Positions 13,661 to 49,454 of a DNA stretch of 64,000 bases are shown here, in pieces. The notes beneath the pieces are model-generated. The model had not been told where the DNA came from. It saw only the letters and a program-made list of their open reading frames with translations, and ran no database searches. The position numbers were made by a program, and so were the translations under genes. Source of the stretch: Caballeronia sp. NK8 (GTDB lineage: Bacteria > Pseudomonadota > Gammaproteobacteria > Burkholderiales > Burkholderiaceae); the NCBI RefSeq assembly GCF_018408855.1, contig NZ_AP024325.1, positions 1,364,001 through 1,428,000 on the forward strand. The letters run 5' to 3'. The first letter of the stretch is position 1; every line of letters starts with the position of its first letter.

Positions 13661-13813
13661 AAACGCGAAATAGCCCTAATTTTCAGGCGTCTTCCAATTG
13701 CGCATTGCATCGACCGTTGCTACGCTAGCCAGCAGCTTACGACGGCGCATGTGCCGAGCGCTGACGCCCGGGGTGCTTCGTCTTAAGCAGCGTTCATTTC
13801 CAGGAGAGCCTCA

Positions 13814-14242: not shown

Positions 14243-14263
14243 GTACAACCCTGCTGCCCAAGG

Positions 14264-14282
14264 AGCCCGCTTCGCGCGGGCT
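14264..14282 (+). terminator. Intrinsic terminator after the HU-like gene
   Basis: Stem AGCCCGC (14264-14270) / GCGGGCT (14276-14282) with the loop TTCGC, followed by TATT. The T-run is short, but the position 20 bp after the stop codon supports the call. Confidence 0.6.
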
Positions 14283-14679
14283 TATTCACACCTGTTGCAC
14301 ACGGAGAGACAAGTTCCTCGGAACAGCGTGCAAGTTCCCGCCAAGCTCTTTCAATTGGTTTTCAACGACGCGGGAGGCAGTCGAGAGGGTGGATTTTTCG
14401 GGCAGCGCAGAGGCTCCTGTCCTTTCGTCCCTGCCTTCCTGAAGTCTCCTCTCCGCTATAAGCAGGCCCTCCGCGCTGTCCAGTGATCCATCGATCTGAA
14501 AGGAGCGCGGGTTGAGACGGGCACTGGAAGCCAGTTCGGCCCCAAAAGGTCACCGGGCTCTCAGTCCGAACACGGGGTTGGCCGTCACTCAATTGCCTAA
14601 GAGCGATATCGATATGCTTAAGCGTCATCCGGGTACGGGCGAAGATTCGTAAGTGACGGTCAAGTGTGGATTCGAGTGT
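14283..14679. other. Gene-free stretch
   Basis: Only short conflicting frames. I see no repeat, hairpin or recognisable gene piece. It separates the end of the accessory island from the catabolic block. Confidence 0.4.
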
Positions 14680-15693
14680 TCAGTTGAGTGTTGCCGAGTA
14701 ACGTCGCAGAATTGACCAGACCTCCGCGCCATAGACCCCGCGCCACTTTTCATAGAAGCCCCCAAGGGCCCTCCGGAAGCTGTGCTGATCCGCGTCGTTG
14801 ACCAGCATGCCCTTGGCTGCGAGAAAGTCCGCGGCGGTGCGCTCGATCTCATAGACATCGTCGCGTTGCAATATCGCATAGTGCTTTTGATTGCGCGTGA
14901 CAATGTCTTGCATCTCTCGCGGCAGTTGTTTCCACGAGTCGGGATTCGCGACGAGCAGAAATCCCGACCACCAGTGATTCGTCAGGCTCAGATACTTTTG
15001 CACCTCATAGAGCCTAAGACTCACAACGATGCCCATGGGGTCCGTCTGTCCCTGTGCCACCCCATCCCGAAGCGACGCGTACATTTTGTTGAAGGTGATG
15101 CCCTTGGGCACCGCGCCGAAGAGTCGGAAGAAGTCTGCGGGCATCTGCTCGACGGGCGTACGGATGATCATGCCACGCAGATCCTCCGCGGTTTTGACCG
15201 GCCGCACAATATTCGTTAGTTGATGAAACCCGTTCTGCATGTAGTACCGGAAAGCATGCAGGCCATTGCGGTCCAATTGCTGACGGATGTAATCGCCCAG
15301 TTCGCCGTCGAGGGCCTCGAATACGTGCGCGTTGTCCTCGAACACATAGGGCAGTGACGGCAACTCCGAGACCTCTGCAACCGGCCCGAGGTTGTTTCCC
15401 GCGAGATACAGGTCGAGCGAGCCTGCGCGCACGGCCGTGAGCATCTCGTTATCGGAGCCGAGCGTGCTGTTGGGATAGACATCGATCCGCAAGCGGCCGT
15501 CCGACTCCTGATTTATCGCTTCTGCCATCTGCGCTATCCTGACATGTGCCGGGCTGCCCACCGGCTGATTCATTCCGAGGCGGTAGGTGAAGTCGGGGCC
15601 GATCGCGCAATACGCGGGACGCGCAGCCGCCACGCTCGCGAAGGCAAGAGCCTTGAGCACGTCGCGCCGCATCGGGTTGTGTCCAGGGTTCAT
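14680..15693 (-). CDS. TRAP transporter solute-binding protein, DctP family (orphan)
   Basis: 337-residue periplasmic binding protein. The N-terminus MRRDVLKALAFASVAAARPA is a signal peptide with twin arginines typical of many TRAP binding proteins. The mature part has DctP landmarks: VGSPAHVRIAQMAEAINQES, LRIDVYPNSTLGSDNEML, YMQNGFHQLTNIVRPVKT, LRGMIIRTPVEQMPADFF and the Arg that clamps the substrate carboxylate within it, plus DGVAQGQTDPMGIV. AGGAAACCATA precedes the ATG. The DctQ and DctM membrane subunits are absent, so it must share another permease or be residual. It lies 28 bp downstream of the porin, probably in one operon. Confidence 0.88.
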   Translation of the reverse strand: MNPGHNPMRRDVLKALAFASVAAARPAYCAIGPDFTYRLGMNQPVGSPAHVRIAQMAEAINQESDGRLRIDVYPNSTLGSDNEMLTAVRAGSLDLYLAGNNLGPVAEVSELPSLPYVFEDNAHVFEALDGELGDYIRQQLDRNGLHAFRYYMQNGFHQLTNIVRPVKTAEDLRGMIIRTPVEQMPADFFRLFGAVPKGITFNKMYASLRDGVAQGQTDPMGIVVSLRLYEVQKYLSLTNHWWSGFLLVANPDSWKQLPREMQDIVTRNQKHYAILQRDDVYEIERTAADFLAAKGMLVNDADQHSFRRALGGFYEKWRGVYGAEVWSILRRYSATLN

Positions 15694-15721
15694 TATGGTT
15701 TCCTGATTCAGCCGATCTCAT

Positions 15722-16906
15722 TCAGAACTTGTGCAACATGGCGATGCGTACGACGGCTTGCCGATTGCTCGTCGACGCAGCCGGCTGATTGTTGATGGAC
15801 GCCCGCGCGGCTTCATTGAGCGAATCGACGCCCGAAGCCACCTGATATATGCCGAGCACGTAGACGCTGGTGCGCTTCGAGAGATAGTATTGCGCGGTGA
15901 TCGCACCGCTCTTGTAACGCGCACCGCCATGAGAGCCGTTCGCCCCGGAGACGCTGCTGCCGTCCGTATAAGCCAGGGCCGCGCCCAGCAGCACCTGCGG
16001 AACGATGAGATAGCTGAGGCTTGCGTCCGCGTTGTTGAAATGCACGCTCCCCGTGTACCCCTGCGGGTTTGGACCGGCCGACAAATCGCCCAGCCCGATG
16101 AAAGAGACATACGAATAGACCGCGCTGGCCGTCGCGGGGCCGAACTTGTAAGAGAGTCCAGCGCTCGCCACCTGGAACGAATGTGCAGAAAGAAAGCCGC
16201 TATAGACCGGATACACGGAATTCGCGACCGACGCGGAAGCCGTACCCGACGTCGCATTGCCAAAATAGCTGACGTTCGGATCGCGCACGTTCAAATAGCC
16301 CGCGCCAGCGGAAAACGGCCCGTTTGCGTAGCTCACGCCGAGAGACCAAGCCTGGTTGCGTATCGGGTCGCCAGCTACACCACCGAGGCTGTACATGCCC
16401 CCCATTGTGACTCCGTCAAACGACGCGCTCACGACCTTGATCGAGTTATTTGTGCGGACCGTATTGATGAAGTTATCCATGTCTCCAGGGTGCGCGCCTA
16501 TGTTACCGGCCCATTGACGCGACGCGGCGAATGGGCCGACGAAATCAGTCTGGATGTCGTATTGCCGGCCAAGCGTCACCGTCACATACGGATTCGTCAC
16601 GCCGATATAGGCCTGGCGTCCGAACAACAAGCCGCCCTGCGCGAGCTTGCCGTTGCTCACATCGAAACCGTTCTCGAGAACGAAGACCGATTGCCATCCG
16701 GCGCCCAATCCTTCGCTTCCGCGCAATCCGAACCGGTTGCCCTGTGCGACGCCTGATTGCATCGCGTACGAAGGATGACCTCCCGAGTTGCTGTTGTAGT
16801 TGATGCCTTCATCGACCACGCCATACAGCGTCACGCTGCCCTGTGCATGGACGATACACGACAGCGTGCTCGCCGCCATGGCGACCACCGGCGCCAGCCT
16901 TTTCAT
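15722..16906 (-). CDS. Outer-membrane porin (Gram-negative porin, OmpC-like)
   Basis: General diffusion porin of 394 residues, a trimeric 16-strand beta-barrel. Start ATG at 16906 chosen because AGGAGACGCGC precedes it; an ATG 60 bp upstream lacks a site. The N-terminus MKRLAPVVAMAASTLSCIVHA is a signal peptide. The mature protein opens with QGSVTLYGVVDEGINY, typical of Burkholderiaceae porins, includes the GNRFGLRGSEGLG and LGRQYD strands, and ends in VRIAMLHKF with the C-terminal Phe needed for BAM insertion. Located just upstream of the TRAP binding protein, it likely supplies the same nutrient. Confidence 0.93.
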   Translation of the reverse strand: MKRLAPVVAMAASTLSCIVHAQGSVTLYGVVDEGINYNSNSGGHPSYAMQSGVAQGNRFGLRGSEGLGAGWQSVFVLENGFDVSNGKLAQGGLLFGRQAYIGVTNPYVTVTLGRQYDIQTDFVGPFAASRQWAGNIGAHPGDMDNFINTVRTNNSIKVVSASFDGVTMGGMYSLGGVAGDPIRNQAWSLGVSYANGPFSAGAGYLNVRDPNVSYFGNATSGTASASVANSVYPVYSGFLSAHSFQVASAGLSYKFGPATASAVYSYVSFIGLGDLSAGPNPQGYTGSVHFNNADASLSYLIVPQVLLGAALAYTDGSSVSGANGSHGGARYKSGAITAQYYLSKRTSVYVLGIYQVASGVDSLNEAARASINNQPAASTSNRQAVVRIAMLHKF

Positions 16907-17229
16907 GCGCGTCTCCTGTGCGGTGTGCGGATGCCGATTCCGCCACCTTGTTTTCGTGAAGAGCAAGTCTAGAGACGCTATGTTTTTTCGGTGGACGGTT
17001 CTTTGGCTTCTTTGGGGCGTTCTTGCGTATCTGCGAATCCTGACGGCGCGGTGCCGTCATGTCGGTCAAAATTCATCTGATGGCTCCATATGCACATCTC
17101 GCACTACGAGACTGCGTCGGGACCGTCCCTCGGTGCAGACAAGATTCCATGGATTTCAGCCCTTTTTTTAAACGTGGCGCGCTCGTATGCTGATGGAGTT
17201 TCCGACAAAGCCCGCGCGAAGGAGCTGAT
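16907..17229. promoter_or_regulatory. Divergent promoter region, porin / YncE-like gene
   Basis: 323 bp between divergent starts. AT-rich patches are at 16975-17020 and 17155-17175. I see no strong palindrome. It should hold both promoters. Confidence 0.45.
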
Positions 17230-18180
17230 GTGACCCAACTCAATTTCACGACCGGCCACGATGGCTTGATTGCCGTCGATAAGCTAGGCAATCGCGTTCT
17301 GTTCCTGGATCCCGAGTCGCTTGACGTGATCCTGACGCTGGAGGGGTTCGCACCGAGAGTTCATGAACTGTCGATCTCGCCCGACCGAAGGTTCGCGTTC
17401 GTACCCATCTACGGCGACGGACGCCACGGCGACAATCCACATCCCGGCCATCTGGTCGCGAAGTTCGATCTCGTGAGCCGCCGTCACATGGGCGATTTCA
17501 GCACGGCGCCTTATCTCGCTCCGCATAGCATTCGTTGGCGGACCGCGACGGAACTCTATTGCATCGGCGAGAACAGCGGCATCCTGCTCGGACTCGATCC
17601 TCTATCGGGAGAAACGACCCGTGCGATTCCCGTCGGCTCGAACAAGGCTCACCGGTTCGAATTCACGCCGGACGGTGCGAAAGCCTATACGGAGAACGAG
17701 GAAGATCCTTTTTGTTCGGTGATCGACATGCGGTCGGGCGAACGCCTCCCGAACATCGAAACACCCAACGGCACGGCTGGAATCGCGATCTCGCCGGATG
17801 GCTCGACCGTCGTCCTTACCGACGCCCGCGAACCCAATCTAATCGTGATAGACGCCGCCACCGATTCGGTCCGACAAACGATCCCGCTCGAGGGTCTGAC
17901 GCAGCCGGCCCAGATCGCCCGGTTCAGTCCTGATGGCCGCTATCTCGTGGTGACGAGTCATGAGGAACCGCTCGGCGTGATCTTTGATGCCTCACTCGCC
18001 CGTCAAAGGCGCGTCCATTTGGGGCGCGGCCCGATGGACCTCTGCTATGCGCCCGATGGTCGTACCGCGCTGATCGCGAACCATGACGAAGGATCCTTAT
18101 GCGTGGTCGACCTTGAGCGAGGGGAAACGGTCCGGACAGTTCAGGCTGGTGTGGGCGTAGAAGTTCTGTCCTTTTACTGA
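17230..18180 (+). CDS. YncE-like beta-propeller protein
   Basis: 316 residues of repeated blades with the pattern ISPDGSTVVLTDAREPNLIV, FTPDGAKAYTENEEDPFC, FSPDGRYLVVTSHEEP and YAPDGRTALIANHDEGS. This is the YncE/cytochrome-d1-like propeller. Such proteins act as scaffolds or, with quinone cofactors, as part of dehydrogenases; no heme or quinone site is visible. No signal peptide is seen, which is unusual because many relatives are periplasmic. The start is GTG at 17230 with AAGGAGCTGAT before it. It converges on the hydrolase gene, sharing a bidirectional terminator. Confidence 0.8.
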   Translation: MTQLNFTTGHDGLIAVDKLGNRVLFLDPESLDVILTLEGFAPRVHELSISPDRRFAFVPIYGDGRHGDNPHPGHLVAKFDLVSRRHMGDFSTAPYLAPHSIRWRTATELYCIGENSGILLGLDPLSGETTRAIPVGSNKAHRFEFTPDGAKAYTENEEDPFCSVIDMRSGERLPNIETPNGTAGIAISPDGSTVVLTDAREPNLIVIDAATDSVRQTIPLEGLTQPAQIARFSPDGRYLVVTSHEEPLGVIFDASLARQRRVHLGRGPMDLCYAPDGRTALIANHDEGSLCVVDLERGETVRTVQAGVGVEVLSFY

Positions 18181-18212
18181 ACATGAGCGGCGATAATCCG
18201 CCGCTCATGTTC
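18179..18212. terminator. Bidirectional terminator between convergent genes
   Basis: Perfect 14-bp arms GAACATGAGCGGCG (18179-18192) and CGCCGCTCATGTTC (18199-18212) around a 6-nt loop. The arms overlap the stop codons of both convergent genes, so the hairpin serves both transcripts. No long T-run follows. Confidence 0.7.
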
Positions 18213-19140
18213 ACGAGAAGAAGCGAATCAGCTCGCTCGCCAGGGCGTCCGGCTGCTCTTCGGGAATGAAATGCCCGCTATGGCGGATCGCGATGCTCGT
18301 CACGTCGTCCGAACAAGCACACAACGGGCCACCCATGTCGGGGATCGAACCTTGATCCGCGCTGACGGCCAGTATCGGCATCGCGAGTTTACCCCGCTGC
18401 GTGAGCGCGCGATTCTGCTCTGCCGAAAGCGCCGCCGCCCGATAGAATGCCAGTCCGGCACGCAGACCACCGTCCTTCATGAATACCCGCTGATACTCAT
18501 CGAGATCCCTCTCGGAGAAAGTCTGTGGATTAGCCGTCTTGCGTCGCAGGAACCAGTCGAGGTATATGCGCTCTTTTCCTTCGATCAGTGCCTCCGGCAG
18601 ATCCGCGACGGTATGAAACGCGAAGTGCCATGTGCGCCAGGCCTTGTGGGGTGCGGTCGGCAGCGCGTCGGGCAACGTTATCCCGGGGATGCCAGCGTCC
18701 AGCAGCGCAAGACGCTTGAGCACCACCTCACCGAACATCGCGGCAAAAGGATAAGCCACCCACGCTCCGACATCGTGCGCCGCCATCATGAAATGGGTGA
18801 CATTCAATTGTTTCAGAAACTCATGAAGCCGCGCGGCGATCGTCTGTGTGTCGTATCCGCTCGATGGACGGTCCGTGTCGCCTTGGCCGGGCAGGTCCGG
18901 CGCAATCACGCGAAAACGTTGCGCGAGCAAGGGCATCACCCTGCGCCAAGCGAACCAGCTTTGTGGAAAACCGGCCAGAAGCACGACAGTTTCGCCTTCC
19001 GCAACGCCACCCGCCACGTAATGAAAGCGAATGCCGTCCACCGTCTCGAAGCGATGCTCGAATCCCGGTAATTCATGGTCCTCGCGACCTACTGGCCCGA
19101 AATCCACGTTTCGGGTTGCTGCAAACGAGTCTGTGTTCAT
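18211..19140 (-). CDS. Alpha/beta hydrolase (epoxide hydrolase / dehalogenase type)
   Basis: 309-residue alpha/beta-hydrolase. Asp in the nucleophile elbow AAHDVGAWVAYPFAAMFG identifies the epoxide hydrolase/haloalkane-haloacetate dehalogenase branch rather than Ser esterases. The oxyanion-hole loop reads LLAGFPQSWFAWR, and the terminal histidine is in IRHSGHFIPEEQPDAL. GAGGGAG precedes the ATG. The GGAAATATATATTTCC palindrome lies 30 bp upstream of the start and recurs before the tetR gene, so it is almost certainly repressed by that TetR protein. The substrate is unknown. Confidence 0.88.
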   Translation of the reverse strand: MNTDSFAATRNVDFGPVGREDHELPGFEHRFETVDGIRFHYVAGGVAEGETVVLLAGFPQSWFAWRRVMPLLAQRFRVIAPDLPGQGDTDRPSSGYDTQTIAARLHEFLKQLNVTHFMMAAHDVGAWVAYPFAAMFGEVVLKRLALLDAGIPGITLPDALPTAPHKAWRTWHFAFHTVADLPEALIEGKERIYLDWFLRRKTANPQTFSERDLDEYQRVFMKDGGLRAGLAFYRAAALSAEQNRALTQRGKLAMPILAVSADQGSIPDMGGPLCACSDDVTSIAIRHSGHFIPEEQPDALASELIRFFS

Positions 19141-34612: not shown

Positions 34613-35419
34613 TCAAGCCGTCGCCGTCGAATTCGCCTCAGCGCTTCCCTGCTCAGTAGCCGACGACGTGACCTCTGCAGTCGTCGGCGCTCTCTTCGCC
34701 GGCACCTTCTTGCCAGCAACTGCACTCTTCTTCACTGCCGCCTTCTTCACGGTGGCCGTCTTCGAGGCTGCTTTCTTTGCGGCCGGCTTCTTCGTCGCTA
34801 CCTTTTTACTGGCAACCTTCTTTGTCACCGCCTTCTTCGCCCCGGCCTTGTTCAAAGCTCCTTTCTTAGCGGCGGTCTTCTTCCCCGGAGCGGCGTCGGA
34901 CACCTCAGGCGCCTCGGTAACCTTGTCGATAAGAAATTTTGTTCGGTCTTTGGCGCTGGCTAACCATGCTGGAGCTTTACCACGGCCACTCCAGGTCGCC
35001 CCACTTTCCGGGTCGCGATACTTCGGAGCCTGCGGTCCGCGCACATAGTTCCCAGCTTTCGGTTGCTTCGATGCGGCGACCGGCGGAGTGGTCGTATCAG
35101 CATCGATCAAGAAGCGATTCCGGTTCTTGGCGTTCGCAATCCACGCGGGCGCGCGGCCGTGGCCAGTCCACGTCGCCCCTGTTTTTGGATCGCGATATTT
35201 CTCAGCTCCTGCGTGATTCGCAGACGACTGCGAAGACGGCGCCTTCTGACCTCGAACCGATCTGCCAACGTAGCTTTCAATATGGGCAATCGTCACGCCA
35301 TGTTTGTCCATCAGACTTCGAATCTCTGCCAGCACCTTGGACGATTGCTTCTTGGCAATTTCCGCTGCCTGCTCCTGTAGCCTTTGTATCTTTGCCTGAA
35401 TTTCGCTCAGCGTTGCCAT
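34613..35419 (-). CDS. H-NS-family nucleoid protein with two DNA-binding cores and a long Lys/Ala tail
   Basis: 268 residues. Residues ~1-50 are the coiled-coil dimerisation region (ATLSEIQAKIQRLQEQAAEI). Two H-NS C-terminal cores follow, YRDPKTGATWTGHGRAPAW (about 75-105) and YRDPESGATWSGRGKAPAW (about 130-165), each with the R/G-rich AT-hook-like loop. Residues ~180-250 are a histone-H1-like tail of KKAAAKK units. AAGGAGGGGG precedes the ATG. Standard H-NS has a single core and no tail. It is expected to silence AT-rich foreign DNA such as the surrounding islands. A broken paralog lies at 10624-11557. Confidence 0.9.
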   Translation of the reverse strand: MATLSEIQAKIQRLQEQAAEIAKKQSSKVLAEIRSLMDKHGVTIAHIESYVGRSVRGQKAPSSQSSANHAGAEKYRDPKTGATWTGHGRAPAWIANAKNRNRFLIDADTTTPPVAASKQPKAGNYVRGPQAPKYRDPESGATWSGRGKAPAWLASAKDRTKFLIDKVTEAPEVSDAAPGKKTAAKKGALNKAGAKKAVTKKVASKKVATKKPAAKKAASKTATVKKAAVKKSAVAGKKVPAKRAPTTAEVTSSATEQGSAEANSTATA

Positions 35420-35815: not shown

Positions 35816-36508
35816 TCAGTTTGCGTACTTGCCGGCGACCTTGACTAATGCTTTCGCACCGCTTTGCTTCCAACCATGACGAAGGGCCCAGATGCGGAGA
35901 TCATCCAGCTCTAAGAATTCACCCTGCTTCCCGAGCGCCTTGAATTGGCTCGCAGCAAAGGCCTTGTCAGATGTGTGCGTCAAACCGCTCGACACGTTCA
36001 CGACCGTATGGATACTTTTCAGCGCAGCCTCAACTGCAGGACTGAGTCCCAGCGGAGGCACCTTCCACGTCTGGGTTCCCCAGAATGTGGGTTGCCAGGT
36101 CCTGAGCCACTGTCTCCCCGCGTCTTCGGTCCATGGGCAGTAGACAATCGCTGAAGCTCGAGAATGATCATCGACCTTCCCAATATCAGACTCGTCAAGA
36201 TGTACTGCGAGTAAGAGGGAACCAGTATCCGCGTTAGCCGCCTTGGCCGCAGGCGTGAGTGCTATCGAAACCTCCTGAGAGTCCGAAACCTTGAGCACTT
36301 TGCCTTGCGACATCGCCTTGACATTCTCGCCCCCTAAAACCTTGGCGACCGTCGAGGAGTCTACATGCTGAAGTGCCGGCACAATCACCGCGATTTTCGA
36401 TATCTTGTCTGCGATGCAGTACTCGACAGCTCGTTTGACCGCAGTCCTGACCTGCTCAACGTGGTCGTTTGCACATTCAACCAGAAACCTAGGCATCTTC
36501 TCTGACAT
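35816..36508 (-). CDS. Uncharacterised protein, third gene of a PD-(D/E)XK operon
   Basis: 230 residues, soluble, unknown family. The N-terminal half looks like an alpha/beta domain (KISKIAVIVPALQHVDSSTV, ASAIVYCPWTEDAGRQWLR). A conserved-looking Trp-rich stretch TWQPTFWGTQTWKVPPLGLS follows, then helical segments to the C-terminus (LDDLRIWALRHGWKQSGAKA). It lies 43 bp downstream of the nuclease gene in the same direction, so co-transcription is likely. There is no ribosome site by eye, and the leader is AT-rich. Role suggested only by context: a partner or regulator of the nuclease. Confidence 0.6.
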   Translation of the reverse strand: MSEKMPRFLVECANDHVEQVRTAVKRAVEYCIADKISKIAVIVPALQHVDSSTVAKVLGGENVKAMSQGKVLKVSDSQEVSIALTPAAKAANADTGSLLLAVHLDESDIGKVDDHSRASAIVYCPWTEDAGRQWLRTWQPTFWGTQTWKVPPLGLSPAVEAALKSIHTVVNVSSGLTHTSDKAFAASQFKALGKQGEFLELDDLRIWALRHGWKQSGAKALVKVAGKYAN

Positions 36509-36551
36509 AGTTTTTTCTATTTAATGATAGAACTTTTGATTTATTTTCGTT

Positions 36552-38033
36552 CTAATTCACTACCGGCGTCACCATGTTTTGCCCATACTCCGCGAAGGCG
36601 TCCGCAAACAATGAGCTGGCCGATTCTGCAACATCCCGAAAGTCGGTTTCAAGGTGCGCAGAAAGCGTCCAAGGACCTCGGTACTCTTCGAACAAGGGGT
36701 CCACGACAGCCTTGATACCGTGCTTGGCTATCGCACAGCAAAACACTTCAAATTTTTCAGCGCAGAGAATAGCAAATGGAATCTGCTGCAGAAGAGCCGC
36801 ATTGCACCCCCTGCTCGTGAGAATCGCCTGGACCTTGCTTACCAGCGTATCGTGCGCGTCAGGGCTTACCAGAAGCCAGTCTTCCAAAGTTACTACAAGA
36901 TTCGCACACGGCAAGGAATTGCGGACCCAATGCGATTTCCCATCCAACGCAAGGGCTATATTCCGATAATTTTGAGCAATCGCTTCCGCGAGAATCGTCA
37001 ACTGAGCGTCGAGATCCTCAGCCGAAGATGCGACGCGGCCTCGCAGATTCAGTCGCTTCGTCTTACACTCAACGAAAACGTTCGCATGTATGTCCGACAG
37101 CACGAAATCGACACCGTGGTGCACATTCCCTCGAACCATGAAGGGCATCTCTTCGTGCACTGTCACCCGCGACGGCATGCAAGTCCTTCGGAGAACGTCC
37201 GCTGTATATTCTTCGAACGCTTTGCCAAATGCCGCATCAAATCCCTTTTGCTGAAACAAGAGATAGAACGTCCCTTCCGTGAATCGGGTCAGCATCCTCT
37301 CGGGCATCGGGCAATAGGTCCTCTCGGGGTACAACGGGTCGAGATTGACGAGCGGCCTGTCGTCAAGCGTGTCAAACGTGTATGCCCACGTATGGTCGAA
37401 CCGTTGGCTTTTTCGAAGTTCGGCGCGTGTCGCCGAGAGAGAGCCGGTCATACGCTCGAAGAATCGATCTCTCGTCTCATGGTCAATGCCAGCCTTCTCC
37501 AGGTCGACACTCGTAACGAAGCGCGGCGATTTGGCGAAGTGCGTGTACGTCATGAAGCCAAGAAACGTATAGTCTCTCGCCGAGATGCCAATCGCGCGCT
37601 CAAGGACGGCAGCGACGTCCTTGTTCTCGTACAAGGCGACATATCGCATGAACCTTCCCAGCGAAGGTCTTCGCTGTAAGGACAACTGCTGCTGCCCGAT
37701 GCGATGCAGTTCTAGCTGGAAGTTGCCTTCCGTGGTTGCTGGCGTGTATTCCAAGTACGCCTGAACTGCCCCGAAGGCTTTCTCTAGGTCCTGCCAGTTG
37801 GACAACGTCCGTGTTCCCCGCCCGATGGTTCCGTGCAGCAGTACCTCACGACAAACAAGGCTAAGCTGATGGGGAAAAATAATCTTCCTTAGGTCCTTTC
37901 CGGGCGCCCCTTCGATCGACGGCGCCGGGCCACCGGCCACAACGTGCCGCGACAACTGCCAGATAATGACCAGCGATTCATCAATGCTGTAGCCGCGCAT
38001 CAAATTTCGGACGGGTTTATATCTTTCGAACAT
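36552..38033 (-). CDS. Protein with C-terminal PD-(D/E)XK nuclease signature (candidate defence nuclease)
   Basis: 493 residues. A restriction-endonuclease-like site is visible: Glu274/275 in KAFEEYTADVLRR, Asp309 in HHGVDFVLSD, and Glu322-x-Lys324 in NVFVECKTKRLN, in the right order and spacing for a PD-(D/E)XK nuclease. The ~260 residues before it and ~150 after are helical with no motif I can name. It is the middle gene of a three-gene minus-strand unit, 30 bp downstream of the 303-residue protein. Cytoplasmic DNA or RNA cleavage is the expected activity; the defence role is inferred from the nuclease, island setting and nearby restriction-modification remnant. Confidence 0.7.
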   Translation of the reverse strand: MFERYKPVRNLMRGYSIDESLVIIWQLSRHVVAGGPAPSIEGAPGKDLRKIIFPHQLSLVCREVLLHGTIGRGTRTLSNWQDLEKAFGAVQAYLEYTPATTEGNFQLELHRIGQQQLSLQRRPSLGRFMRYVALYENKDVAAVLERAIGISARDYTFLGFMTYTHFAKSPRFVTSVDLEKAGIDHETRDRFFERMTGSLSATRAELRKSQRFDHTWAYTFDTLDDRPLVNLDPLYPERTYCPMPERMLTRFTEGTFYLLFQQKGFDAAFGKAFEEYTADVLRRTCMPSRVTVHEEMPFMVRGNVHHGVDFVLSDIHANVFVECKTKRLNLRGRVASSAEDLDAQLTILAEAIAQNYRNIALALDGKSHWVRNSLPCANLVVTLEDWLLVSPDAHDTLVSKVQAILTSRGCNAALLQQIPFAILCAEKFEVFCCAIAKHGIKAVVDPLFEEYRGPWTLSAHLETDFRDVAESASSLFADAFAEYGQNMVTPVVN

Positions 38034-38063
38034 ATGGAGGTCTGGTCGGAGTCGGCAAACGGC

Positions 38064-38975
38064 TCACAGCGCCCAGTCAATTTCGCGGAGCACGAAGCCG
38101 GTTGCGTGGACCGCGAGGTTGGCATCATCCTCAGTGACTTCGCGGAGGTTACGCCGATGCCGCTCGTTCTCCTTGCCGCGCGGATGCAACATGTTCACAA
38201 CCTCGAGCGCGGAACGTAGCAAGACGTGACTGCCCTGGCCGAAGTGGCGCTGAATCGCGCAGATGCATCGAGCTAGATCCTCCCCGAGTAACGAAGCATC
38301 TCCCGACAGTTGATAAAGCCATCTCGAGATCAACACGACGCAGAGGTTGCGACACTGGTCTACTACTGACGTTGGCAATTCTCGATACGCCGCATTTAGC
38401 ACGCGCTGGTAGGCCCGCTTTACCGCGGGGAGGCTCTCGGTGTGAATCCGCGCCTCGTGCAGCGACGGCATTATGCCAAGTGCTGACTCTGCTCGAAGCG
38501 TGACTAGCACATCCTGGCTGACCGTGGACTCCGTTTGCAGTATCTGCCAGGTTGAAAACGACCCGGCCACACCTATCGCCAAACGCAGCCCCTCACCTCT
38601 GTCGGGACTCCCCAAAAGCTCGGAGCATTGAGCATAGACGCACAGTTCCTTATACAAACGGCCATCGTTCCGTTTGCTCGAATAGTCGGAAATAGCGAAC
38701 GTGCTGGCATCAACCAGCATTTGTTCCCAGCCGGAGTTCCCGAGCTTCTGATATAGCCGCCCCCTTCTGACACGTGACACAGGGTCGAAGGATTCCTCGC
38801 GAAACACCCAACCGAAGGGATGACTGTCGAGCCCAAGCGGTAGCTGGGGCAGATCAGAGGGGGTTTCTATGAGCTTGCATTGCGACACGACGGGCGTAGG
38901 TACGGCTAGGTAGCGCGGATGATCCTTTCCCTCGAAGATTTGCCCGGTTGCACGGTCGATTCCCAAGCGAGACAT
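38064..38975 (-). CDS. Uncharacterised protein, first gene of a PD-(D/E)XK operon
   Basis: 303 residues, soluble, unknown family. The N-terminal ~90 residues contain PVSRVRRGRLYQK and a Trp-rich turn (PFGWVFREESFD). The C-terminal two-thirds are strongly helical with repeated Leu/Cys positions (VVDQCRNLCVVLISRWLYQL, EDLARCICAIQRHFGQGSHV). No catalytic motif or membrane segment is visible. It starts the operon with the nuclease and the 230-residue protein; stable small gaps (30 and 43 bp) imply a functional unit. It could be a sensor, adaptor or DNA-recognition subunit. Confidence 0.6.
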   Translation of the reverse strand: MSRLGIDRATGQIFEGKDHPRYLAVPTPVVSQCKLIETPSDLPQLPLGLDSHPFGWVFREESFDPVSRVRRGRLYQKLGNSGWEQMLVDASTFAISDYSSKRNDGRLYKELCVYAQCSELLGSPDRGEGLRLAIGVAGSFSTWQILQTESTVSQDVLVTLRAESALGIMPSLHEARIHTESLPAVKRAYQRVLNAAYRELPTSVVDQCRNLCVVLISRWLYQLSGDASLLGEDLARCICAIQRHFGQGSHVLLRSALEVVNMLHPRGKENERHRRNLREVTEDDANLAVHATGFVLREIDWAL

Positions 38976-41608: not shown

Positions 41609-44600
41609 CTAGCCATAGTGATACTTAGACATGCCCCGATCATAGGCTACGTGAACCTTCGCGGATATTTCTCTCACAGTGATCTCACCGTTTTTGTCGA
41701 CGTCGAGGCCACTGTTCTGCGTATACTGGATCGTACCCTTCCTGAATACAACGTCGTCGGGATCCCAGCCAATTGCCTTCGGATATAGGATTGCAAGATA
41801 GACATCGTCCAGACTCGAGAGCTTGCCTCTGAACCGTTTGAAGTGAGCGCGAACATAGTCGAGTTGCTCAATATCGCTCATCTGCTTCAACGCCGCCAAC
41901 GTCGTCTTCAGATCCCTCGCATCGATTGCCGTGAATTGAATCAATCCTACTGCGTGGCTGCCTTTAGCATTCTCAACTTTTGGGCTGAACTTCTCGCCGG
42001 TTTCAAACGCCATACAGGACATCAGATAGCTCGGGTTAATGCCGATATACTCGGCGATCTCAATCGTCTTGGCTTTGAACGCGACGGACACAGAGCGGCC
42101 CCAAGCGACCTTCTGCTGCTCCGCAATCACCGCTGGACTCGGCGCTGGAGTCGCGCGCACCGGCGCGGAAGTGAATAGCCTCAGCGGCCAAGGCAAGCGG
42201 GACTCGACTGCCGAACGCACATCGAGCGGCGATTGCCCGACATCGATCTGATCGTCACCGCGTGACATCCGAACCGAGGCGCCCTGGCCAACAGCTGTAT
42301 GAATTGCTGCGGAGACGATTGGATTGTCCATGAGACCTGGCGCGACATCTTGCATGACGGCTTTGGTCAACGCGTCGTTGATGGACCCGACCGACGCCCT
42401 AGCCGTGTCGCTGTCGACTAAGCCGCTATCTACGTCGCGGCGAATACTGTCCTTCACCATCGGTGCCAGCGCTGCGGGATTGCCCGTAGCAACAGCGGCG
42501 GCCATCTGCCCTGCTTCGAGCTGCTTCATCGCCAGTTCCGCGCCGAGTTCGCCAAAGCGCTTGGTCACCGCGTAGCTCTGCGCGAGCGCGTCTGCCGAAT
42601 TGTGTTGCGTGCCGGCGATGCCGGTATTATTGGGGAAGGAGTTTGGATTGGTGATGGCCGTGATCGCGGGAGCTGTTCCACTTGCATCCGGCGCGGGCGG
42701 AAAACCCACCTGATTGATGATTGCGGCGGGCATCTGCGGCGGCGTTGCGAGGGCAGTGTCGCGCGCGCGGCTCGCGAGAGACAGCGGATCGATTGCCGTT
42801 GGCTCGTCGGGCAACGGATGCTCCCAGTACTGCCAGTTGCGGCTATTGTCGATCTTCTCGCAACTGTTACAACTGCCCATCACCGATTCCGCAAATACGC
42901 CGCGCGTCGGAACTGAGATGCGCGCCGACGGGCTTGCGATCATCGGACGGTAGTACGCGAGCAACCAGTCCTCGCCTTCGTTCTCTGCATTCTTCCCTGT
43001 ATCGGACTTCTCTTCAAAACTGTCGAGGCGGATGCCCGGCGCGACCGGCATCACTAGGCTATTTCCGATGATCCCGACCAACCGATTTTCTACCACCGAC
43101 GCCACACTGCGACCGCCGGCGTTCGGCGCGACGTAGGCATCTAGTAGCGAATATCGGCGATCCGGATCCATGGTCCAGAAGATCGCTTTGTGATAGAACT
43201 CCACGTTCTCGTTTAGATGTCGGAGCAACTGCTTTGCCGCCTCAGTGTCGTCTTCGGTGCGCGCACGCAGTTCGTGCGGCTGAGGTGGCGTGAGTAAATT
43301 AACTGAGCCAGTTTTGAGGTCGTTCGCAGCGGGTTTAACGAGCACGGTGCTCCGGATGTTCTCTGTGCAGAAGAGAACGGACGCGCCCCGCACAATCGCG
43401 CTGTCGAATGACGCGATGGTCGCGCCTGATGTTATTTTGATGCTAGCGACACGACCGCGCGGGATTGCCCTGTCAGCGATACTTCCGTATTCCTGCAACC
43501 TAACGGTGTGCGCGTCACCGGCTCGGTATGACGACGCCAGCACGGCTTTCAGGGGCAAGGGTTGAACGTCCAGATTGTCGAGCACCGCCGAGACCGTAAG
43601 TTCATCGACGAACTTTTTTGCCAGCGCTGGGCCGATCTCTCGTTCGAAGAGTTCGTAGCGCGCGGGCGAGTCGGCCTGCTTGAGCCTCTCAACCAGCCCG
43701 GGCAATGGCGACGATGTAGGAAACGAGACTGCAAGCCAAGTTTGCCACGGCGTCGTTGCTTCGAGCGTGGCAGACGGCATAGGAAAATCGAGTATGAGTT
43801 CGACTTCGGCGCTCAGGCTGGTGAGTATTTCATCAGCGTAAGTCGTGGCGGGCGCATTATTGTCCGTAAGGCGCTCGCACGCGTCCACGGCATCTATGAG
43901 CCGTGAGGGCAGGAATCCTTCGAGGGCACTGCGCCAACGCACGACCTTTTTCGCATCGAATGGCGAAATCGGAAACGGAATGTAGAGGCACTCGCGCACG
44001 GCATCGAGTTCATGATCGACCCGAAAATGCCGGAGCACCTCAAAGTATTGCACCGTGATCGCGTGGCACGCATTGCGATTAGCAACAACTTCCGTTACCG
44101 CCCGCGCGGATTCTTCCTGACTTACTTGCTGCACCATCGTCACGCGTTGCGCGCGCAGTGCATTGGCCGACTGCACTGTCTGATCGCGTAACTGATTCAT
44201 GTAGTTCGAAGCAAGCGTGCGACTCGAGTCTTGGCTTGCGTTAGTGCTGGCATTAGACGATCCGCCGGATGAGCCACCGAAGGCGACCCCAAATAAGGAG
44301 AAGCCACTTCCGCTCGTGTCCGAACCGCTGGTCGAATCGGAGTGAGCTTTAATCGACTCGTTCAACGCGGAATTCACGATCTCGGAGATATCACGCTCGC
44401 GGCCGACGAAGTTGTATAGGGACTCACCATAAGTCTGCGAAGAATCCATCTGCAGCACGTCCCGTCGGTCCCAGTCGACGATCGCGATGTTCTTCTTCTG
44501 CAACGGCGCGAGGGGAAGCGAATACCGCAGATCCCCCAGTGAATACCCGTCGGCGCGCCAGACCTGCTTGATGGTGAGGATGCGTCCATGCGAGATGGTC

Positions 44601-46348
44601 ACGGCTTGCGCAACCATCGGGTCGCCATCCCAAAGCATCTGCTCGGTCTGGGACAGCGAAGTGCGGAAGTAGCGATTGATAGGACTGCCGGCCTCAACTT
44701 GACTGCGATCGCCCGGATCCCCCCAGTCCTTATAGTCGAGCGCTTTGGCGCCCGCATCGTCGCCTCCGTGAATTGGGTCCTGCGGTACCTTGCGGCGAAT
44801 GCGGATGATCTCCGGGTCCGTGGTGCGCACAATAATTTGCGTTCTGAACTCGTCGAGCGCGCGATTGGGTTCGTCGAAATCGATGCCACGGCAGCCACAG
44901 TCTTCAGACCGGTTAGCTGCGTCGGTCGCATCATCATCGTCAAGGATCAGTGTGCTATCAATCTGCAGCAGAACCGGCGAAGGAAACTGCGCCAATTCGT
45001 CAGCCTGCGAATGCTTGTCAAGCTTTAGCGCCAACGACACGCCAACGCCACTCACCTGCAACAGTGCATGGCGCGCACGCAACTTCGTCTTTCCCGCATA
45101 GTTGAATTCGAAGTAGCCGGACTGATCCGTCTGCGTAACTGCGAGTGCCTGCGGCGTGAGCAAGGCCTCGAGCGCGCGGCCGTCGTCGCAGCAGTCCTCG
45201 ATAAGTAGGTCGGCGGGCGCGCAAGCATCGTCGACAAGATGGGCCGCGCGCGGCGGAGCGAACACCGCCACGTTGCGAATGCCGAAGGTTCTGCCGTCGG
45301 AAAACCACAGGCGTCCCTTGACGGTCGTCATCTCCTCGGGAACCACCGGCCGTGTCGCGAGTGCGCCGCGCAATTCGTCCGTCGGTGCGACGGGGATCTC
45401 TACATCTCGCGCACCGTCACCGTCCAACCACTTAGAAAGCGAGTCAAAGTCGACATAGTGTGTCAGCAGTTGCCGGCCATCCGGTCCGATGACATCAAGA
45501 CGCGCCCACGTGCCGTAGCTCACCGCGCCATCGGCGTAACGAGTCGCGCCCTCGATTAGGAAGCTGTATTCCATCACGCCGCTGGGCGGCTGCTTAGAGT
45601 AAAGCCATCCATTGAGGCGGCTGACCAGGAACGGAGCGGATGGTGCTGGCGCTGGTGATGGCGTGACTGTCGCGACTCCAGCCACGAGACCCGGCGACGG
45701 CGCTCCCGCCGTCGGGGCGGGCGTCGGAGTGGGAGCAGGTGCACCTGTCGCTGTCGGAGCCGGCGCAGGACTCGCACTTGCCAAAGGGGCAGGTGCAGGT
45801 GCAGGCGGCACAGTGGGTGTCTTAGTGCCGAGTGTCGTAAGGAAATCCAGCCATCCCGTCTTGTTTAGGGAGTTCAGTTTGAGCGCACCGAACTGCCCCC
45901 CCGTCCACTTGTTCAGCAGCCCGGAAACGATCGGCCAGGCACTATCGGCTTGCGTCCCGAGCCTCAGCCCCTCGACTGCTTGCGCTTCTTTCGAGTCGGG
46001 CGTTTTACTCAGAAATTTCGCTAGTGCGTCGACGACCCGCGCGGTGGTACCTGTCGGCCCCGGTAGGAGTTCGGCGAAGGGCAGGAGCTGCTTAAACAAG
46101 TCGGTGAGCTTACTCTCAATGTTGTCGATGACCGGCTGTTCGTTACGCTCCTGGAATGTCAGGACGACGGCAAACGGCAGACGCCTCTTCTGAGGCGCAC
46201 CGGTGCTTGGCGGCACTGACGGCGTGGGCGTACGGAACTGTTTGCACATCTGGCCGATCAGTTCGTCGAACGCCGGTCTGACGTCCACGCATTGCGTCCC
46301 ATGCTCATCGGAAAATTTGAGCGTTCCTTCGATGACCTTGTAGCTCAC
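41609..46348 (-). CDS. Giant protein (1579 residues) with C-terminal lysozyme/transglycosylase-like domain
   Basis: Starts at GTG 46348, overlapping the upstream stop by four bases, with GGGGAGAAGATACA before it. Visible organisation: an N-terminal region (1-175); a Pro/Ala/Thr-rich linker (~178-240); beta-rich segments with QSGYFEFNYAGKTKLRARHA, which resembles a carboxypeptidase-regulatory-like fold (~415-435); a Ser/Gly-rich stretch near 690-715 flanked by coiled-coil-like helices; a large unknown centre; and a C-terminal domain (~1415-1579). That domain holds YLMSCMAFETGEKFSP (candidate catalytic Glu1449), GSHAVGLIQFT and an EF-hand loop DVDKNGEITVRE (1549-1560). It lacks a signal peptide, so it is exported by another route or acts inside. 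Low-complexity linkers and the peptidoglycan-hydrolase end suggest a delivered or envelope-spanning device. Confidence 0.8.
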   Translation of the reverse strand: MSYKVIEGTLKFSDEHGTQCVDVRPAFDELIGQMCKQFRTPTPSVPPSTGAPQKRRLPFAVVLTFQERNEQPVIDNIESKLTDLFKQLLPFAELLPGPTGTTARVVDALAKFLSKTPDSKEAQAVEGLRLGTQADSAWPIVSGLLNKWTGGQFGALKLNSLNKTGWLDFLTTLGTKTPTVPPAPAPAPLASASPAPAPTATGAPAPTPTPAPTAGAPSPGLVAGVATVTPSPAPAPSAPFLVSRLNGWLYSKQPPSGVMEYSFLIEGATRYADGAVSYGTWARLDVIGPDGRQLLTHYVDFDSLSKWLDGDGARDVEIPVAPTDELRGALATRPVVPEEMTTVKGRLWFSDGRTFGIRNVAVFAPPRAAHLVDDACAPADLLIEDCCDDGRALEALLTPQALAVTQTDQSGYFEFNYAGKTKLRARHALLQVSGVGVSLALKLDKHSQADELAQFPSPVLLQIDSTLILDDDDATDAANRSEDCGCRGIDFDEPNRALDEFRTQIIVRTTDPEIIRIRRKVPQDPIHGGDDAGAKALDYKDWGDPGDRSQVEAGSPINRYFRTSLSQTEQMLWDGDPMVAQAVTISHGRILTIKQVWRADGYSLGDLRYSLPLAPLQKKNIAIVDWDRRDVLQMDSSQTYGESLYNFVGRERDISEIVNSALNESIKAHSDSTSGSDTSGSGFSLFGVAFGGSSGGSSNASTNASQDSSRTLASNYMNQLRDQTVQSANALRAQRVTMVQQVSQEESARAVTEVVANRNACHAITVQYFEVLRHFRVDHELDAVRECLYIPFPISPFDAKKVVRWRSALEGFLPSRLIDAVDACERLTDNNAPATTYADEILTSLSAEVELILDFPMPSATLEATTPWQTWLAVSFPTSSPLPGLVERLKQADSPARYELFEREIGPALAKKFVDELTVSAVLDNLDVQPLPLKAVLASSYRAGDAHTVRLQEYGSIADRAIPRGRVASIKITSGATIASFDSAIVRGASVLFCTENIRSTVLVKPAANDLKTGSVNLLTPPQPHELRARTEDDTEAAKQLLRHLNENVEFYHKAIFWTMDPDRRYSLLDAYVAPNAGGRSVASVVENRLVGIIGNSLVMPVAPGIRLDSFEEKSDTGKNAENEGEDWLLAYYRPMIASPSARISVPTRGVFAESVMGSCNSCEKIDNSRNWQYWEHPLPDEPTAIDPLSLASRARDTALATPPQMPAAIINQVGFPPAPDASGTAPAITAITNPNSFPNNTGIAGTQHNSADALAQSYAVTKRFGELGAELAMKQLEAGQMAAAVATGNPAALAPMVKDSIRRDVDSGLVDSDTARASVGSINDALTKAVMQDVAPGLMDNPIVSAAIHTAVGQGASVRMSRGDDQIDVGQSPLDVRSAVESRLPWPLRLFTSAPVRATPAPSPAVIAEQQKVAWGRSVSVAFKAKTIEIAEYIGINPSYLMSCMAFETGEKFSPKVENAKGSHAVGLIQFTAIDARDLKTTLAALKQMSDIEQLDYVRAHFKRFRGKLSSLDDVYLAILYPKAIGWDPDDVVFRKGTIQYTQNSGLDVDKNGEITVREISAKVHVAYDRGMSKYHYG

Positions 46349-47490
46349 TGTATCTTCTCCCCGGATAGAACCTGAACCGGCGCCGGTAGCTCATCTTTTC
46401 TTTGCAGAGCCCCGACGTTTCCCGTCTGCGCGAGTGGCTTCACACGGATTTCCACCCTGCGAAGCGGCCCGAAGCAGCGGACGATGTTATTAAAGTTCGG
46501 ACTCAAACGGTGTTCGGCGTTAGGGTAAAGGCTTCGACAAATCGACTGAACTTCCGTAAGCGGTTGGCTATCCGCTAGGCCGTAAACCTTTGTGTGTGGC
46601 ATCTGTTTTTTCTCCTCCAGCTTGCTTCTCAGAGCGGCTTCTATTGCTTTCGCCCGCTTCTCACTCAAGGGCTGGTTATGTTCTTTTTTGCCTATTGGAT
46701 CGGTGTAGCCGATGATCTCCGTGATCTCAAGCTTCTTCGGATCGACACCGCCTAGCTTCTGCTTAATCATCGAAAGGACAATTGCGCCAGTTTCCGGGTG
46801 GGTCCCGGACTTATCGAATTCGAACATGTCCGTGTAGATCAGAATTCTGTCCGGCTCGATGACCGTCTTGCACCTTTCGGGGCATTCCTGGCTCACGGGC
46901 GGCGGGGGAGGAGGAGGCACGCATTTCTCGCACACGGGCGGCCGCGGTGGCGGAGGCGGAGGCACACATTCCTGGCAGCCCATGCGAGCCCGAATCAGAT
47001 AAAGAAGAATCGTCAATAGACTCAAGACGAGCGCTACAAGAAAGACCTTTTGTCCGAAGCGCCCTAGCCAGTGGTGAGCCGGCACATGCCGCGTCAAGTC
47101 TTCACCTCGCACACCTGAGGTAAGCGGATTCGCCTGTTCCCGGTTGCGGCGAAAGTCCCTCCACTCGCCGATTCGATTGTGCAGAAGCAGATCGGCCTGA
47201 TACGGCCACGAATCAACCAGTTCACGACTCACGCCTGCCCCAGCGCCCTCAATGATGGCGCGAAGCCTTGCCCGCTTTGCCTTGGCGATATCATCAATCG
47301 TATTGATGCCGCAGTTGTGCAACGCGACGATCGCCTCGCTGTTCATGCCTACGAGCCGATGTATTTCAATTCGGTCTTCGCGCCCATCCTCGGGCGGCGG
47401 CGGGTGTCCGCGCCATCTAATGCTCTCGAGAAGCAAGTAGATGGGCAGCAGGATCAGGGGTATCAGCCAGAGCCAACAAACGAAATTCAT
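46345..47490 (-). CDS. Membrane-anchored OmpA-domain protein
   Basis: 381 residues from the ATG at 47490 (GGTGGGATCC before it; a TTG 15 bp upstream is less likely). A membrane helix lies near residues 1-22 (FVCWLWLIPLILLPIYLLLE). A small helical domain of helix-hairpin-helix style follows (IVALHNCGINTIDDIAKAKR), then a second membrane helix near 150-168 (KVFLVALVLSLLTILLYLI). Next come Cys/Pro-rich repeats (CVPPPPPPRPPVCEKCVPPP) and an OmpA-type peptidoglycan-binding domain (ITEIIGYTDPIGKKEHNQPL then SEKRAKAIEAALRSK). It anchors something to the inner membrane and cell wall. Its stop overlaps the giant gene's start, so the two are translationally coupled. Confidence 0.8.
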   Translation of the reverse strand: MNFVCWLWLIPLILLPIYLLLESIRWRGHPPPPEDGREDRIEIHRLVGMNSEAIVALHNCGINTIDDIAKAKRARLRAIIEGAGAGVSRELVDSWPYQADLLLHNRIGEWRDFRRNREQANPLTSGVRGEDLTRHVPAHHWLGRFGQKVFLVALVLSLLTILLYLIRARMGCQECVPPPPPPRPPVCEKCVPPPPPPPVSQECPERCKTVIEPDRILIYTDMFEFDKSGTHPETGAIVLSMIKQKLGGVDPKKLEITEIIGYTDPIGKKEHNQPLSEKRAKAIEAALRSKLEEKKQMPHTKVYGLADSQPLTEVQSICRSLYPNAEHRLSPNFNNIVRCFGPLRRVEIRVKPLAQTGNVGALQRKDELPAPVQVLSGEKIQ

Positions 47491-48489: not shown

Positions 48490-48600
48490 GGCGGGAGTTC
48501 TGACTAATGTTGATGAATCCGCCTGAACCTGCAAGACGCGAGCCGAACCGACTGACGTTGACGTTGCCGGCACGATCGATCTCCGCCATTGGTGGAGTGG
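48490..48600 (-). pseudogene. CoA-transferase fragment
   Basis: On the minus strand a ~30-residue piece reads [20 protein letters not shown] and then [10 protein letters not shown], which matches the conserved region of acyl-CoA:acetate/3-ketoacid CoA-transferases (DxxGNVNVSxFGxR...GGFINIS). Nothing before or after it continues the family, so it is debris. Confidence 0.65.
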
Positions 48601-48639
48601 GGCCGATGACGATCCTCACACTCGTGCGCTGTCGCGAGC

Positions 48640-48845
48640 GAAAGTATCGCCCATGTCACCATGATCCGTGCAATCCAGCGCCGTGCGCCCACCTTGTGCA
48701 ACAACAAGTTGCTGGGAATCTCGAAGAAAAAATAGCCGACAAAGAAGAGTCCGGCGCCCAGCCCATACACAGCTTCGCTAAAGTGCAGATCATTAAGCAT
48801 CTGCAGTTTTGCGAATCCAACATTTACTCGATCGAGATATTTTTT
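48640..48845 (-). pseudogene. MFS transporter fragment (anion:cation symporter type)
   Basis: About 65 residues: YLDRVNVGFAKLQMLNDLHF, then GLFFVGYFFFEIPSNLLLHK and [17 protein letters not shown]. This is helix 1 to helix 4 of an ACS-family tartrate/phthalate-type permease, broken at both ends. Confidence 0.75.
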
Positions 48846-49454
48846 GTTCTGAGGGAAAGGGTGCTCGTTCAAACGGGGACATATCGAAAGGCTACTCCGC
48901 GCTTCACGCCGAATCCCGCTACGGGTAACGCGAGCACCTGCGACCGTGAAGCGCCGTCACAACTCATGATGAATTACGAACCCCCTCGGCGAACTCGAGC
49001 AGTTGGGAGTGAAGATGGCACACGGCGATGCCTGCCATCGGTCCGCTAACCCGCGGGTGCAGGGCCCTTAGAACCCGTTCGACGACCAGCGTGGTCGGGG
49101 TCATCGAGTTTTTCCCGTCGTCGAGGGCCCGCCGACTCGTGGCGTCGAGCTTCGCGTAGTGTCGAACAGCTCGGCGGATTAGGGGTGCGGGCCGATCAGC
49201 AAGTGCGCGTGGGATAGCGGTACGCGAGGTGCGGCGCTCGATCAGTCCGCGTAAGTGCCTGCTAGCGCAGCCGGTCAACAGGGATTCGCACCTGCCGGTA
49301 GGGGTAGAAAGGCGACGACGCGACGCGCCGTCGTGGCATCGCTCGGCGAGAAAGGCGCGATTCCTGCGTTAGAAGGGAACCAAGATCCAAGCCGGGGCCG
49401 GCCCCACAAGGATCGAACCCACACTGCCTCCGGACTGCGACTACTCAGCAGCCT
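48846..49454. other. Gene-poor stretch after the relic cluster
   Basis: A minus-strand frame at 48964-49278 reads like a possible protein end (RRAVRHYAKLDATSRRALDD) but cannot be placed. A GGATCGAACCC string near 49410 suggests a tRNA T-arm on the minus strand, but the stem does not pair. Confidence 0.35.

Follow-up and report, generated by a model that had tools for sequence, protein, structure and literature searches.

The 64,000-nucleotide stretch of Caballeronia sp. NK8 analyzed here (contig NZ_AP024325.1, positions 1,364,001 to 1,428,000; hereafter the window) encodes a giant protein of 1579 amino acids (aa) next to a 381-aa membrane protein with an OmpA domain, its partner. Comparison of the giant with its relatives shows, at the level of sequence, that C-terminal tails have been exchanged at a junction on a conserved carrier. 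We think it somewhat probable that the giant is a polymorphic-toxin-like carrier of envelope-acting hydrolases with an exchangeable C-terminal enzyme, which acts outside the cytoplasm and is docked by the wall-anchored membrane protein. The purpose of such a carrier is most likely attack on the envelopes of other cells.

The giant's family is without a Pfam or NCBIfam name, and no recognized description of it was found in the open-access literature, where an unnamed family is hard to find by words. As far as our searches reach, the carrier, its spread and its split form are new, and so, in one clade, is the combination of a partner anchored to the wall with a motif at the junction. The initial annotation, a reading of the window made from the DNA letters without database searches, did not foresee how wide the family is, that its enzymes are swapped, or that some loci have a split payload.

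Tail Exchange on a Conserved Carrier

Relatives were sought with residues 240-1400 of the giant as query; 7990 candidates were scored, 616 of them relatives, and 120 relatives were listed. A scan of species genomes gave 119 matches, the best 80 of which were kept and represent 75 distinct loci (cited below with L, individual proteins with P). Among these, 71 loci are bacterial, three archaeal and one unassigned, with Pseudomonadota (24), Bacteroidota (22) and Actinomycetota (9) as the chief phyla; the archaeal reach of the family is to Methanosarcinales. In an alignment of 23 diverse members a beta domain at the N-terminus is followed by a transthyretin-like domain, the core (~640 residues), a linker and a C-terminus that cannot be aligned; highly conserved core motifs lie around YSLPLAP, CHAxTxQYFEVLRH, GRSVASVVEN and PTxGVFAExVMGxCNxCE. 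A profile search of the PDB with the family alignment found no relative; its two matches, both to ribosomal protein L19, are at chance level.

Two records of the family stand apart. MT835996.1 (L079), filed as "Bacteriophage sp." from feces and perhaps bacterial DNA, encodes the core with 28% identity over 54% of the query. The Psychrobacter plasmid NZ_MK422609.1 (L077) carries at 13498-18768 a family member annotated as "OmpA family protein," suggesting a fusion of OmpA domain and carrier.

From the loci 86 C-termini were cut, and 65 of these plus that of the window were given to Pfam, the other 21 being left out, without a fixed rule, as near-copies or alike by eye. The names most often returned for the 66 tails were C70 papain (12), PETase-like (5), M23 (2) and Tae4 (2), followed by single matches to GH25, M15, OmpA, DUF5675, Muramidase, Amidase_6, DUF2272, Amidase_2, C39 and PG_binding_1 and by weaker ones. 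The 83 tails longer than 40 aa fall into 27 sequence groups, the member read (L007) of one group of 19 tails bearing an AHEIGH-like motif, with similar motifs in P0060 and P0086; we take this group for zincins.

In a tree of 114 cores, 31 tail states are spread over the 109 labeled rows in a way that takes 41 changes, the minimum possible being 30; the tree leaves out five near-copy loci (L014, L016, L021, L024, and L052) and four proteins, namely P0001 (94% like the window's giant) and P0019, P0036 and P0040 (the proteins of L003, L005 and L004, respectively). Among the 20 best pairs, cores with 76-85% identity bear unrelated tails. Identity per 100 residues across the junction falls from 91 and 87 to 39, 22 and 15% between L009 and L027, and from 90, 87 and 69 to 23% between L020 and L030, which are metagenome-assembled genomes (MAGs) of Methanosarcinales and Tharpella, respectively. 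This sharp drop between close cores demonstrates module exchange at the junction. Transfer of the carrier between domains of life is likely, with misbinning of the MAGs as a possible source of the same picture. Tail groups, tree and identity drops agree in the pattern by which polymorphic toxins are recognized, a common N-terminal part with recombined C-terminal domains. The exchange of tails on a common carrier, together with enzymes that cut wall, lipid or protein, gives the family the look of polymorphic toxins (PMC3482391; PMC7073777; PMC12135965). It also agrees with the proposal of the initial annotation that the giant is no housekeeping autolysin, as its transglycosylase is one of many exchangeable tails.

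The payload can also stand in a gene of its own. Behind short-tailed giants we find a tyrosinase-type gene after 11, 12, and 12 bp (L033, 10385-11353; L040, 4849-5367; L045, 3540-4499) or a caspase-like gene after 20, 2, and 34 bp (L063, 13600-14649; L069, 12955-14052; L070, 12963-14153). Pfam names the tyrosinase in L033 and L045 and the caspase in L063, the other three being assigned by similarity or sight; in the clustering of neighbors L040 and L045 group with L033, and L069 and L070 with L063. In L072 a gene without a name lies 12 bp behind the giant, and behind the short-tailed giants of L057 and L067 no enzyme gene was recognized.

Two giants stand in tandem in 12 loci, in 11 of which an esterase-like tail is paired with a papain-like one. 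Six loci have a gene of 94-107 aa called between the two giants, the esterase-like tail coming first and the papain-like second (L016, 14762-15046; L044, 5885-6202; L047, 14307-14591; L051, 7541-7831; L052, 8411-8701; L060, 6833-7156), and its product is perhaps an adaptor or part of a complex. The giants of L051 and L052, from MAGs named Nitrospira and Mesorhizobium, have equal lengths and the same order, likely from a binning error or a very recent transfer.

The main rival to a weapon takes up these arrangements: the family might be a surface or extracellular enzyme platform, on which the carrier displays or releases hydrolases for feeding or for the building of a matrix or coat. The recognized tails act on the envelope or outside, with tyrosinase, esterase-like and papain-like enzymes among them, the 12 loci in which tandem giants differ in their tails hint at an assembled complex, and no adjacent immunity gene is evident in the window or L005. 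However, tail exchange between close relatives looks more like conflict than housekeeping, and so does the sparse presence of the giant, which was found at full length in one of the 37 genomes of its genus searched (its own, itself among the 37), one other giving a short 55% match confined to the Pro/Ala region. We hold such a platform to be improbable, if deserving of attention.

Architecture of the Carrier and Its Payload

The genes of the partner (46345-47490) and the giant (41609-46348) both lie on the minus strand of the window, as do all features given for them below, and both reading frames are open. They are linked by a four-base stop/start overlap, GTGA, at 46345-46348, and purine-rich stretches precede the starts (AGGTGG for the partner, with its ATG at 47490, and GGGGAG for the giant, with its GTG at 46348); the two-gene operon of the initial annotation was thereby verified. 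The relatively AT-rich nature of the DNA that it noted is likewise borne out, the G+C content being 0.578 in the window, 0.592 in the giant gene and 0.562 in the partner gene vs. 0.617-0.661 in seven of eight 20-kb stretches sampled from the same genome; the eighth, directly beyond the window, has 0.561. The giant is single-copy in its genome.

The giant, defined by its open reading frame (ORF), Pfam scan, relative search and alignment, begins with an N-terminal domain into which a stretch at approximately residues 75-240 (45629-46126) is inserted, comprising a helical segment predicted by sight and a Pro/Ala linker. A transthyretin-like beta-sandwich (residues 341-468; 44945-45328) precedes the conserved core of the family (residues 562-1198; 42755-44665). 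Within the core lie a Gly-rich hydrophobic tip (residues ~676-702) between two amphipathic stretches, seen in the column statistics of 204 sequences (residues 640-745 in all; 44114-44431), a putative PLAT/C2-like beta-sandwich (residues 842-1020; 43289-43825) and a highly conserved block reading GRSVASVVEN ... CNSCE (residues 1079-1164; 42857-43114). For the coiled region noted initially the outcome is mixed: the structure model has helices at residues ~1243-1307, in a part of low confidence. The motif SRLPWPLRLFTSA (residues 1383-1395; 42164-42202) marks the junction and immediately precedes the payload (residues 1409-1575; 41624-42124).

By sequence comparison the C-terminal domain is a lytic transglycosylase of the phage baseplate type, as the transglycosylase-like reading of the initial annotation, with Glu1449, had anticipated. 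It matches phrog_4928 (4e-50), phrog_196 (baseplate hub, 2e-37) and PDB 9udh_A, named a lytic transglycosidase (3.5e-41), with which the FETGE motif containing Glu1449 (42002-42004) is aligned. The Glu in FETGE..GLIQF is presumably the catalytic residue.

The payload thus belongs to the same family as the lytic transglycosylase of phage baseplate hubs (phrog_196, PDB 9udh), and its closest relatives in baseplate-hub lysozyme domains are what would make the giant a remnant of a phage or tailocin baseplate; we regard this as very improbable. In contrast to a baseplate hub, the resemblance covers ~170 of the 1579 residues. Among the best 20 of 273 phage matches, 19 concern only the last 160-190 residues, the exception, and the only one to match the core, being an unannotated metagenomic scaffold; in viral contigs 19 stretches fit a search pattern, none of which was confirmed as a relative, and no phage-like gene was recognized among the scanned neighbors. 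In the rest of the family, moreover, other tails take the place of the transglycosylase. The initial annotation would have been refuted by the giant belonging to a known tail-hub or tape-measure family, and this refutation did not come about. As far as these collections reach, we rejected identity with a phage tail hub or tape measure as the main body found no homology in the 20 phage matches or the viral contigs, the one scaffold excepted.

The giant has neither a Pfam domain over the cut-off nor an NCBIfam match, and a Pfam scan at E up to 1 gave two sub-threshold matches only, neither of them a peptidase; a defense library gave no match either. As the initial annotation had noted, there is no signal peptide, the N-terminus having no hydrophobic stretch: no 19-residue window of the giant exceeds a hydropathy of 1.6, and the six highest windows all lie away from the N-terminus.

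A pore-forming, aerolysin-like fold was considered for the long-stranded domain of the giant. A first structure model places strands of 20-33 residues within residues 586-791, and a Foldseek search with it listed the pores lysenin, aerolysin and perforin, but model confidence was ~40-60 in the middle of these residues. In a second model, of that domain alone (mean pLDDT 64.6), the insert is unsettled and partly helical, and structure searches were weak; its hydropathy has a helix-like period of 100 degrees in the first flank and an ambiguous one of 130 degrees in the second. The Gly-rich tip and its flanks are a possible membrane-inserting hairpin, modeled with low confidence both times. They resemble in this the glycine-zipper effector Tde1, a type VI DNase effector whose Gly-rich segment permeabilizes membranes (PMC10240207). 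Together with the C2/PLAT-like domain, such a hairpin may touch or enter a membrane.

The Membrane Partner and the Window-Type Clade

The partner consists of a first transmembrane segment (residues 3-25; 47416-47484), a loop, a second transmembrane segment (residues 145-170; 46981-47058), a Pro-rich linker and an OmpA peptidoglycan-binding domain (residues 222-304; 46579-46827), the segments being placed by hydropathy and the domain by Pfam (PF00691, 7.4e-07; 29.9 bits vs. a cut-off of 27.2), in line with the membrane-anchored OmpA-domain protein of the initial annotation. The loop, which has a weak helix-hairpin-helix match, would be cytoplasmic and the OmpA domain periplasmic. In the defense library the partner reaches ZorB/MotB at E 0.011, inside its OmpA part. 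A search with its N-terminal half gave one relative (68%) and was too strict even for the known partners of L002-L005.

The partner characterizes one clade. In the tree 40 rows, with eight payload kinds and nine changes, lie on one side of a branch with a support of 100; we refer to them as window-type. DNA was at hand for five window-type loci (the window, Sphingomonas L002, P. mandelii L003, Solimonas L004, and Acidovorax L005), and in all five the partner, likewise with two hydrophobic segments, lies directly upstream of the giant, overlapping or at most four bases apart, in otherwise differing surroundings. The recurrence of the pair elsewhere, which the initial annotation had proposed as a check, is therefore confirmed. 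A profile of the five partners was run on the ORFs neighboring the giants in 76 loci altogether. In the 71 others it detected no partner next to the giant; two weak hits, in L063 (7e-07) and L068 (0.0022), lie on the opposite strand at a distance of over 3 kb. An envelope-spanning giant, as envisaged initially, is not borne out. The OmpA partner is confined to one clade of the family. The same clade has the N-terminal insert, which in the 23-row alignment the window-type rows carry and the other 13 lack; the spacing between the N-terminus and the transthyretin-like domain is 235-301 in the five loci and mostly below 200 in others.

Tails of the clade were counted in 44 rows, or 43 proteins, as L004 and P0040 are one protein; two truncated rows were left out. 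They comprise 16 DUF3238-like tails (a label resting on one sub-threshold match), 13 Tae4, seven YkuD-type and two lytic transglycosylase tails, one DUF5675 tail (two rows), two of one unnamed kind, and NlpC-like and CHAP-like singles by sight. The clustering had merged transglycosylase and Tae4 tails via a shared linker, and these were split by hand. Just before the tail, many clade proteins have a Trp-Pro-Arg motif (e.g., SRLPWPLRLF, SRWPWPFRLL) with differing tails behind it, and Ala-x-Ala often comes next. The pattern WP[FLIW] occurs in 27 of 44 window-type tails vs. a shuffle mean of 0.92 (maximum 4 in 500 shuffles) and in 1 of 78 others, in a statistic that ignores relatedness; a looser junction pattern occurs in 28 of 44 vs. 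4.5 in shuffles, and in 13 of 78 others. The motif may resemble Trp/Pro-rich membrane-active peptides and signal-peptidase sites.

On the carrier reading, the presumably cytoplasmic loop of the partner would dock the N-terminal insert peculiar to the clade and thereby keep the carrier waiting at a wall-anchored site. The Trp-Pro motif may be the point of payload release or of membrane contact, after which the transglycosylase would cleave the peptidoglycan of another cell.

The same arrangement could instead serve self-directed wall remodeling, with the OmpA partner holding the giant at the cell's own wall for the transglycosylase to open it, for instance for an assembly. A wall-anchored membrane partner in the same operon fits this, immunity would not be needed, and the tails of known activity in the clade (Tae4, YkuD, transglycosylase) are wall enzymes. 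Nevertheless, relatives with the same kind of core bear non-wall enzymes, no signal peptide would bring the enzyme to the wall, and Pfam describes Tae4 as a type VI secretion effector; we judge self-remodeling unlikely.

Relation to Known Delivery and Toxin Systems

Tae4 tails also bear on a link of the giant to type VI secretion, as do sheath genes. The genome of the window has three genes for the sheath marker VipB, none of them inside the window (G000:C4:845074, C3:270798, and C4:1628494), and VipB was matched in 9 of the 29 family genomes tested, that of P. mandelii included. On the other side, no match was found in the remaining 20 nor in the genomes of three of the five window-type loci (L002, L004, and L005), these genomes being drafts of unstated completeness that may miss genes. 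Family members occur in actinomycetes and archaea, and none of the recurrent neighbor clusters, read by sight, resembles VgrG, PAAR or Hcp. We hold a type VI link to be quite unlikely. The contractile sheath PF04984, a model that very divergent sheaths of extracellular contractile injection systems (eCIS) may escape, was matched in 9 of 29 family genomes as well, eight over the cut-off. With VipB and contractile sheath each in only 9 of 29, neither machine looks like the general route.

Three toxin groups are comparable to the family. Like WHIX effectors, the family combines a common domain with exchangeable, mainly peptidoglycan-targeting domains, the enzyme sometimes being encoded in the next gene; nearly all WHIX effectors, however, come from genomes that also encode type VI secretion, and they are paired with cognate immunity proteins (PMC12135965), whereas 20 of the 29 family genomes have no sheath-gene match and the family's tails include peptidases and esterases. 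TANFOR polymorphic toxins are likewise large proteins with a common N-terminus and a variable C-terminus, the toxin sometimes lying in the next gene; unlike the giant's family they are almost confined to Bacteroidetes, a Sec signal is predicted for ~87% of them, and many of their tails are nucleases accompanied by immunity genes (PMC7073777). The toxins of Photorhabdus virulence cassettes (PVC) and eCIS, in bacteria and archaea, share with the family papain-like, alpha/beta hydrolase, lysozyme-like and OmpA tails, and no immunity is given in the PVC-only table rows seen; what unites these toxins among themselves is a metallopeptidase domain, along with a contractile apparatus (PMC3482391). By contrast, the giant is without a metallopeptidase domain by Pfam, and the sheath model used went unmatched in 20 of the 29 family genomes.

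Several observations count against a carrier of envelope-acting toxins. In the window and L005, ORFs and sequence read by eye revealed no evident immunity-like gene behind the giant. In L003 the product of a convergent gene seems to have a signal peptide, and L004 has a lipoprotein-like ORF, both without a Pfam name above the cut-off; these possibly exported neighbors are candidate immunity genes. Pfam, NCBIfam and hydropathy revealed no recognized trafficking domain or export signal in the giant, and the fold matches behind its proposed membrane action lie under the noise limit. The shuffle test of the junction not only disregards relatedness, but sets the clade against 78 others in which the region was cut by a different rule. 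Finally, among the 66 tails scanned by Pfam, many of them without a name, no nuclease or clearly cytoplasm-directed tail was recognized. Classical polymorphic toxins have many nuclease or other cytoplasm-directed tails. The lack of such recognized tails and of evident immunity genes sets the family apart from these toxins, and we file it as polymorphic-toxin-like and not as a classical member.

A bolder version of the carrier reading, speculative and in our estimation rather unlikely, is a self-contained delivery device. Here a single polypeptide, binding membranes through its C2/PLAT-like module and inserting into them through its Gly-rich hairpin, would need no dedicated secretion machine to move interchangeable hydrolases out of cells or into them, would be traded between bacteria and archaea, and would have in the OmpA partner a clade-specific, wall-anchored launch dock.

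A carrier that ranges from Pseudomonadota to Methanosarcinales, and whose common part has no annotated domain, would be a further chassis among polymorphic toxins, and it suggests an as yet unrecognized export route. Each unassigned tail, or gene right behind a short-tailed carrier, becomes a candidate envelope-acting enzyme, and docking and payload release can be put to the test through the wall-anchored partner and the junction.

Surroundings of the Locus

Besides the OmpA partner, the split enzymes and the small gene that separates two giants in tandem, recurrent neighbor clusters are few and, by sight, of general kinds. A conserved wider operon was dropped as a candidate on this ground.

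In the window, three adjacent genes of 230, 493 and 303 aa on the minus strand (35816-38975) are without a Pfam match at E 0.01. An H-NS type protein with a histone-H1-like stretch is encoded at 34613-35419 (PF00816; PF07382 below its cut-off). A 122-aa ORF at 48504-48872 has a short match to a major facilitator superfamily (MFS) transporter and is perhaps a gene remnant.

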